A stretch of DNA of 47,617 bases, from contig JAGPKU010000012.1 in NCBI GenBank assembly GCA_018053845.1, positions 1-47,617 on the forward strand. The letters run 5' to 3'. The notes beneath the pieces were generated by a model. The model saw only the letters and a list, made by a program, of their open reading frames with translations. It ran no database searches and was not told where the DNA came from. Source of the DNA: Syntrophobacterales bacterium (lineage in GTDB: Bacteria > Desulfobacterota > Syntrophia > Syntrophales > UBA2192). The translations under genes were made by a program, and so were the position numbers. Of this stretch, positions 26,468 through 27,593 are shown in pieces (the stretch's first letter is position 1; each line of letters starts with the position of its first letter).

Positions 26468-26782
26468 TTACAGGACCCCGTAGCCCGCTTTTTTCCAGCC
26501 CTCGACGCCGTCGAGCAGGGCCTTGGCGTTCGGGTATCCCAGCTTGTTGAACTTCACCGCCTGACCGGCGGCCGTGTGCTCCTTCGTTCAGGCGCAGTAG
26601 AAGATGATCTCCCGGTCCTTCGGGATCGCGGGGAGCATCTTCTGGAACTCGGAGAAGGGGACAGCCCCCTCGAGGCGCAGGGCCCTGAACTTCTCGTCCT
26701 CCTCGTAGCCGCAGACCAGCAGGGCCTGTCCGGCCTTCACCTTCTCGTAGGCTTCCTGGGGTGTGATGCGAGCGGCGGGCAT
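26468..26782 (-). CDS. Rhodanese-like protein with probable selenocysteine
   Basis: The frame runs 104 residues if TGA at 26588-26590 (residue 65) is read as selenocysteine. Before it the protein has LLVCGYEEDEKFRALRLEGA and DREIIFYCA; after it come TKEHTAAGQAVKF, LGYPNAKALLDGVEGWKKAG and a TAA stop. The C-terminal half, with its GVEGWKKAGY ending, is rhodanese-like, so readthrough is needed for a complete fold. Related sulfurtransferases, as I recall, have CAC here, so Sec replaces the reactive Cys. A hairpin CCGCC-GGTCA-GGCGG at 26557-26571 begins 17 nt downstream of the TGA, as expected for a bacterial SECIS. ATG 26782 follows AAGGAGGCAACC. Sulfur-transfer or redox activity is inferred. 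Confidence 0.8.
26557..26571 (-). promoter_or_regulatory. Probable bacterial SECIS element
   Basis: On the minus strand CCGCC and GGCGG form a 5-bp stem with the loop GGTCA, so the loop starts with the GG needed by SelB. The loop begins at nucleotide 25 counting the T of TGA as 1, against 22 for GGTC in E. coli fdhF. It lies within the rhodanese coding region, as bacterial SECIS elements do. Confidence 0.7.
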
Positions 26783-27056: not shown

Positions 27057-27593
27057 ATGGCCAACGTGTTCATCTGTGCAGTCGACGACGGGGCGGCCGC
27101 CTTCGGACGAGAGCTGGAAACCGGGTGTGCCCTCGAGACCGTGCTGCCCTTCATTCCGGACGAGCGGCAGAAGGAGGCGCTGAGGCGTCTCTGCCCGGAT
27201 GGGCGATGCTACCCCTGGGGGGTCAGGGGGGACAACCTTCCGGTCTGGACCCTGATGGCCCCGGATGACCTCGTGCTGATGTATCGCCGCCGCGCCATCG
27301 TCTGCGCCTCGACCGTTCTGATGAAGGGCAGATACCCCTCCCTGGCGGAACATTTATGGGGCGGCCGCCCCGAGGGGCCGTTCGAACTCATGGGCTTCGT
27401 GCGGAAGCCGCATGTGGGGGAGGTCCCGATCGTCGAGCAGATGCTGGGTTATCTGGACCGGGAGTTCAGCGGGTTCACCCGGCTCGACCCCGCCAAGTGC
27501 GAGAACATCCTGCGGGCCTTCGGGTCGCTCGACGTGTTCGTCCGGCTGGGGCTTCGCTACGATTTCCCGTTCAACTTCCGCCATTCGGAATGA
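27057..27593 (+). CDS. Possible EVE-like (PUA-fold) protein
   Basis: This protein of about 178 residues resembles EVE-type domains that read modified bases. It has CYPWGVRGDNLPVWTLMAPD, DDLVLMYRRRAIVCASTVLM and YPSLAEHLWG, with FELMGFV later. Such domains occur fused to nucleases in modification-dependent restriction systems; here it stands alone. There is no nuclease motif and no partner nearby. I start at ATG 27057 with GGGGAAGATGTC upstream; the frame is open for 98 more codons but with no ribosome site. The EVE match is from memory and weak. Confidence 0.5.
   Translation: MANVFICAVDDGAAAFGRELETGCALETVLPFIPDERQKEALRRLCPDGRCYPWGVRGDNLPVWTLMAPDDLVLMYRRRAIVCASTVLMKGRYPSLAEHLWGGRPEGPFELMGFVRKPHVGEVPIVEQMLGYLDREFSGFTRLDPAKCENILRAFGSLDVFVRLGLRYDFPFNFRHSE

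Follow-up and report, generated by a model that had tools for sequence, protein, structure and literature searches.

Based on our genomic analysis, the window, meaning the whole 47,617-nucleotide stretch of DNA analysed, very likely encodes on its minus strand a single-domain rhodanese in which the UGA at codon 65 is decoded as selenocysteine (Sec) by SelB and tRNASec via an in-frame SECIS element. With UGA read as Sec, the gene (26782-26468) comprises 104 codons plus TAA, running from an ATG at 26782 to the TAA that ends at 26468, with 64 sense codons upstream of the TGA (26590-26588) and 39 downstream. A Shine-Dalgarno-like AAGGAGG (26797-26791), read directly as a probable ribosome-binding site, lies 8 nt 5' of the ATG. 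The predicted product, MPAARITPQEAYEKVKAGQALLVCGYEEDEKFRALRLEGAVPFSEFQKMLPAIPKDREIIFYCAUTKEHTAAGQAVKFNKLGYPNAKALLDGVEGWKKAGYGVL, scores 31.5 bits against the Pfam rhodanese model PF00581 (gathering cut-off 22.2). Consistent with a rhodanese fold, an AlphaFold2 model with Cys put at position 65 has a mean pLDDT of 93.7 and superposes on GlpE (1gmx) with a Z of 15.7 and an rmsd of 2.1 over 101 residues.

The in-frame TGA is kept in the orthologues of five other species of the genus, at 80-86% identity, and thus in six of six species with the orthologue when the window is counted. Across the window's phylum, matches at E 1e-8 or better are found in 56 of 395 genomes, and every one of the best phylum-wide homologues (45-59% identity) has one TGA or two. 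Within the close family, defined as the rows at 40% identity or more with the window included, UGA occupies the site in 45 of 46. Named homologue records include those of an uncultured Desulfobulbaceae bacterium and of the Syntrophaceae bacteria UBA2192 and UBA5744. The only close-family row lacking the UGA is a paralogue from the genus (L058, contig C96 of genome G001) with a shorter, ordinary loop, FYCGSG. As L058 has kept LVCAY, it appears to have lost Sec. One homologue alignment (A2), in which a row (L092) was misplaced, was left out. Pooling all 15 pairwise comparisons among the six congeners gives a dN/dS of about 0.20 before the TGA and about 0.22 after it, and therefore the region past the TGA is under constraint at the protein level. 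No match to the gene was found among plasmid records, and a profile search of 398 genomes from the phylum of Rhodoferax (L050), run with no positive control and hence of little weight, returned nothing at E 1e-12.

The upper stem-loop of the SECIS, CCGCC-GGTCA-GGCGG (26571-26557), spans nucleotides 17-31 after the TGA. Its first base is the 17th nucleotide after the TGA, nucleotides 17-21 and 27-31 form the stem, and the loop GGUCA (26566-26562) begins at the 22nd. The bacterial SECIS model describes a loop of 3-9 nt with a G in its first two bases, a stem of 4-16 bp, a spacing of 16-37 nt and an MFE of at most -7.5 (PMC13188914). With its 5-nt loop, 5-bp stem, 21-nt spacing and MFE of -15.2 kcal/mol for 45 nt (-11.8 for nucleotides 14-34), the hairpin lies within every one of these published limits. 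Of the TGAs in this GC-rich window, 12% are followed at an allowed spacing by a perfect stem of at least 5 bp whose loop has a G at its first or second base; therefore, the hairpin alone is weak evidence and the comparison across species carries the argument. A hairpin with a GGTC loop follows just one of the 1169 TGAs in the window, and no other frame in the window that combines a UGA with a hairpin was convincing when judged by eye.

Among the amino-acid-invariant degenerate codons of the six congeners, synonymous change is found in none of nine within codons 66-75 versus 34 of 56 elsewhere (hypergeometric P = 6e-4). Both bases of the pair 18-30 are third codon positions. In 44 of 47 close UGA homologues this pair is Watson-Crick, alternating between T-A (23) and C-G (21), with a permutation P of about 2e-4, an optimistic value as the covariation permutations ignore relatedness. 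In the wider set of 65 UGA homologues the pair 17-31 switches from C-G to G-C, and the second loop base is a G in all 65. The hairpin is absent from all eight non-UGA homologues checked, two of which are of the Y-C-x-C-x-N-E-A-S kind. On single sequences, the folding energy of the window sequence showed no excess stability over its synonymous recodings (P 0.14-0.18), and across sequences and measures this recoding test is weak, with P ranging from 0.01 to 0.65; the structural case therefore rests on the species comparison. The conservation of the TGA, the lack of synonymous change beneath the hairpin and the covariation together place the hairpin beyond chance. Since the covariation is codon-neutral and lies within a coding region, this SECIS is unusually clear.

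The genome to which the window belongs, 2.65 Mb in size and 96.6% complete, encodes selA, selB, selD and a tRNASec with anticodon TCA in DNA (UCA in RNA). Its selD carries a UGA within the GAGUACK motif, an internal sign that UGA is read as Sec in this genome. It is most improbable that the TGA is a true stop instead, whether in a pseudogene or through a sequencing error in a single metagenome assembly. Decay does occur in the genus, as one orthologue (L019, genome G001) has an extra in-frame TAA at codon 31 beside its kept TGA. However, six species whose genomes were assembled separately share this TGA, which also recurs throughout the close family, with neither TAA nor TAG at codon 65 in any genus orthologue or close-family row, and purifying selection continues past the TGA, next to a conserved, covarying SECIS and in a genome with complete Sec machinery. 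The conservation of the TGA across species and the selection after it led us to reject a pseudogene or sequence error. The TAA in L019 itself is either decay or an error of sequence, the G001 assembly being 77% complete. Scarcely more probable is that the UGA serves as a selenium-sensitive switch for which the 64-residue and the full-length products both matter. In favour of such a switch, decoding of UGA by SelB in general competes with release factor, and the 64-residue product would stop one residue past the catalytic Cys. Nevertheless, the short product would be without the final two helices of the rhodanese fold and the greater part of the active loop, and is predicted from the model to be unlikely to fold; no other support for a switch was found. 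Decoding of UGA65 as Sec is strongly backed by the sequence evidence, and much of the original prediction holds: a rhodanese-domain selenoprotein with an in-frame TGA after FYCA, an in-gene SECIS with a GGTC loop 17 nt after the TGA, and a gene that should not be taken as a truncated one of 64 residues. The search for selA, selB, selC and selD that it had proposed found all of them.

Where the Sec sits relative to the catalytic residue differs from what had been predicted, namely that Sec would stand in place of the reactive Cys. In the phmmer alignment to the YgaP rhodanese domain, FYC63 of the window protein falls on FHC63 of YgaP. C63 of YgaP is its catalytic Cys, and a C63D mutant entry of YgaP exists in the PDB. 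By this alignment the canonical rhodanese catalytic Cys is retained at Cys63 (codon 26596-26594) and Sec65 therefore lies at +2, in a C-x-U motif, which led us to reject Sec as a substitute for the catalytic Cys; the active loop FYCAU fits the motif YCxU. The CAC given in the original prediction for Cys-containing relatives does exist, in the YCAC of a more distant homologue (L098); another distant homologue has YCDC (L096), and in both it is the second Cys of C-x-C that lies at the UGA position.

In four members of the close family (L023, L047, L084 and L086) the codon for the catalytic Cys is UGA as well, resulting in UxU loops. L025 is also listed among the UxU active loops, and no UxU rhodanese is listed in the cited reviews. 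By parsimony, on a tree with weak deep branches, C63 changed to UGA at least four times. Judged from these sequences, the repeated change suggests that positions 63 and 65 act as a pair. The active site may include a third residue. The D-x-R after the second strand, a common rhodanese trait that the Pfam model does not demand, is absent from the window protein, which instead has C24-x-Y26 within an LVCxY motif, with Cys24 (codon 26713-26711) aligned to the Asp of YgaP and Tyr26 to its Arg. All 46 close homologues have Cys24, and 45 of them have Tyr26. In the rhodanese fold, the strands corresponding to residues 20-24 and 58-62 are neighbours. As Cys24 ends the first of these strands in the AlphaFold2 model and Cys63 is just past the second, Cys24 may join the active site.

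Under the mechanism we propose, SelB and tRNASec would decode UGA65 as directed by the SECIS just downstream in frame, and Cys63 would act as the normal rhodanese nucleophile, taking up sulfane sulfur or becoming oxidised. Sec65, as the resolving or redox partner, would then attack the persulfide or oxidised thiol at Cys63, and the selenenylsulfide so formed would be opened by a cellular reductant. Cys24, which stands where D-x-R normally has its Asp, may provide the site with a third thiol. We give an even chance that the window protein works on sulfane sulfur as a Se-S redox couple, and we infer both the substrate and the part played by Cys24; Sec at +2 could have a purpose besides sulfane-sulfur reduction. 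Genomic context, whether from the neighbours in the genus or the paralogue loci, gave no pointer to a substrate. Somewhat more doubtful, and put forward tentatively, is the broader view that these proteins form a separate branch over many families of the phylum, with a three-chalcogen site (Cys24, Cys/Sec63 and Sec65) that nearly always has Sec at 65 and has given rise repeatedly to a diselenide-capable UxU form, and that their function is to reduce persulfides or peroxides and not to transfer sulfur.

The Sec could be real and the protein still be a sulfur or selenium transferase, with Cys63 as the persulfide or perselenide carrier and Sec65 tuning the transfer instead of resolving a redox intermediate; the product might, for example, be a donor for selenophosphate or for modified tRNA. 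The rhodanese fold and the retained catalytic Cys would suit such a carrier, and rhodaneses have been proposed in the literature as carriers of both sulfur and selenium. Several observations nonetheless make transfer the less likely role. Enzymes dependent on Sec are mostly redox enzymes (PMC9312934), the paired C-x-C, C-x-U and U-x-U forms resemble a redox couple, and the gene is not adjacent to the sel genes.

As the original prediction correctly stated, the family is not new, as CxU rhodanese selenoproteins are already known as rhodanese form 3, NF041203 (PMC13188914, PMC9312934). The window protein shares with NF041203 (rhodanese_LYCAU, 'rhodanese-related (seleno)protein') a single rhodanese domain, a YCxU loop, Sec at +2 of the catalytic Cys and a SECIS just downstream. 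However, it scores 52.1 bits against that model, for which the curated cut-off is 115, and matches it from residue 35 onward only, while control members from the same order as the window score 119 and 138 bits, over the cut-off. In addition, members of the NF041203 type such as L061 retain D-x-R where the window protein has LVCxY. Based on the score and this difference, we assign the window protein to a sister branch of the known CxU selenorhodaneses and not to NF041203 itself. We treat this sister branch, outside the curated family models by its sequence and distinguished by C-x-Y for D-x-R and by recurrent UxU, as somewhat new; as a rhodanese selenoprotein, the window protein is real and well supported from its sequence but ordinary.

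Other rhodaneses with Sec are more distant. TsoB (NF045694), a rhodanese/DsbD fusion-like selenoprotein with UxxxxU, also has a rhodanese domain with Sec; its model, however, describes a fusion of 572 positions with two Sec, whereas the window protein has 104 residues, a single domain and one Sec and scores 19.7 bits against a cut-off of 805. Rhodanese-like selenoprotein forms 1, 2 and 4 (UxxS, UxxG) are rhodanese-fold selenoproteins too, but their motifs differ from CxU (PMC13188914). GlpE (1gmx) and the YgaP rhodanese domain (2moi, 5hbo) have the same fold as the window protein, with the catalytic Cys aligned in the case of YgaP, but are without Sec and without CxC or CxU, and YgaP has D-x-R in contrast to C-x-Y in the window protein. 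The window's own genome codes for two further selenorhodaneses. One (L055, contig C65, 12634-12930) is a second protein with LVCAY and CAU, 54% identical to the window protein. The other (L064, positions 684-2339 on the minus strand of contig C32) is a 552-residue protein in which a rhodanese with two UGAs in its active loop (LYUAU) is fused to a multihaem cytochrome c region; it scores 141.8 bits against NF041203, over the cut-off. The same UAU rhodanese recurs elsewhere in the genus, in the species of L038 and L066-L069.

Annotation of the TGA as a stop would yield a truncated protein of 64 residues, and the enzyme would be overlooked, probably across dozens of genomes. The branch nearly always has Sec and keeps its catalytic Cys. 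With its natural CxU and UxU pairs and one relative without Sec, it is well suited to studying the contribution of selenium to rhodanese chemistry.

Downstream of the selenorhodanese gene by 12 nt, and on the same strand, lies an O-methyltransferase gene (26455-25457; Pfam PF00891 and PF08100) with which it is probably co-transcribed. The two genes are linked and share a strand in each of the six congeners, and in four of these they are immediate neighbours. This linkage is confined to the genus, the paralogue lies beside a different gene, and no widely conserved neighbours were found around the rhodanese gene outside the genus. The paralogues L053, L055 and L056 are found a few hundred bases upstream of a pyridine nucleotide-disulphide oxidoreductase gene (PF07992, for the L053 copy). 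Divergent to the selenorhodanese gene is an ORF of 177 codons on the plus strand (27060-27590) that has no Pfam match and is kept in three other species of the genus at 65-76% identity.
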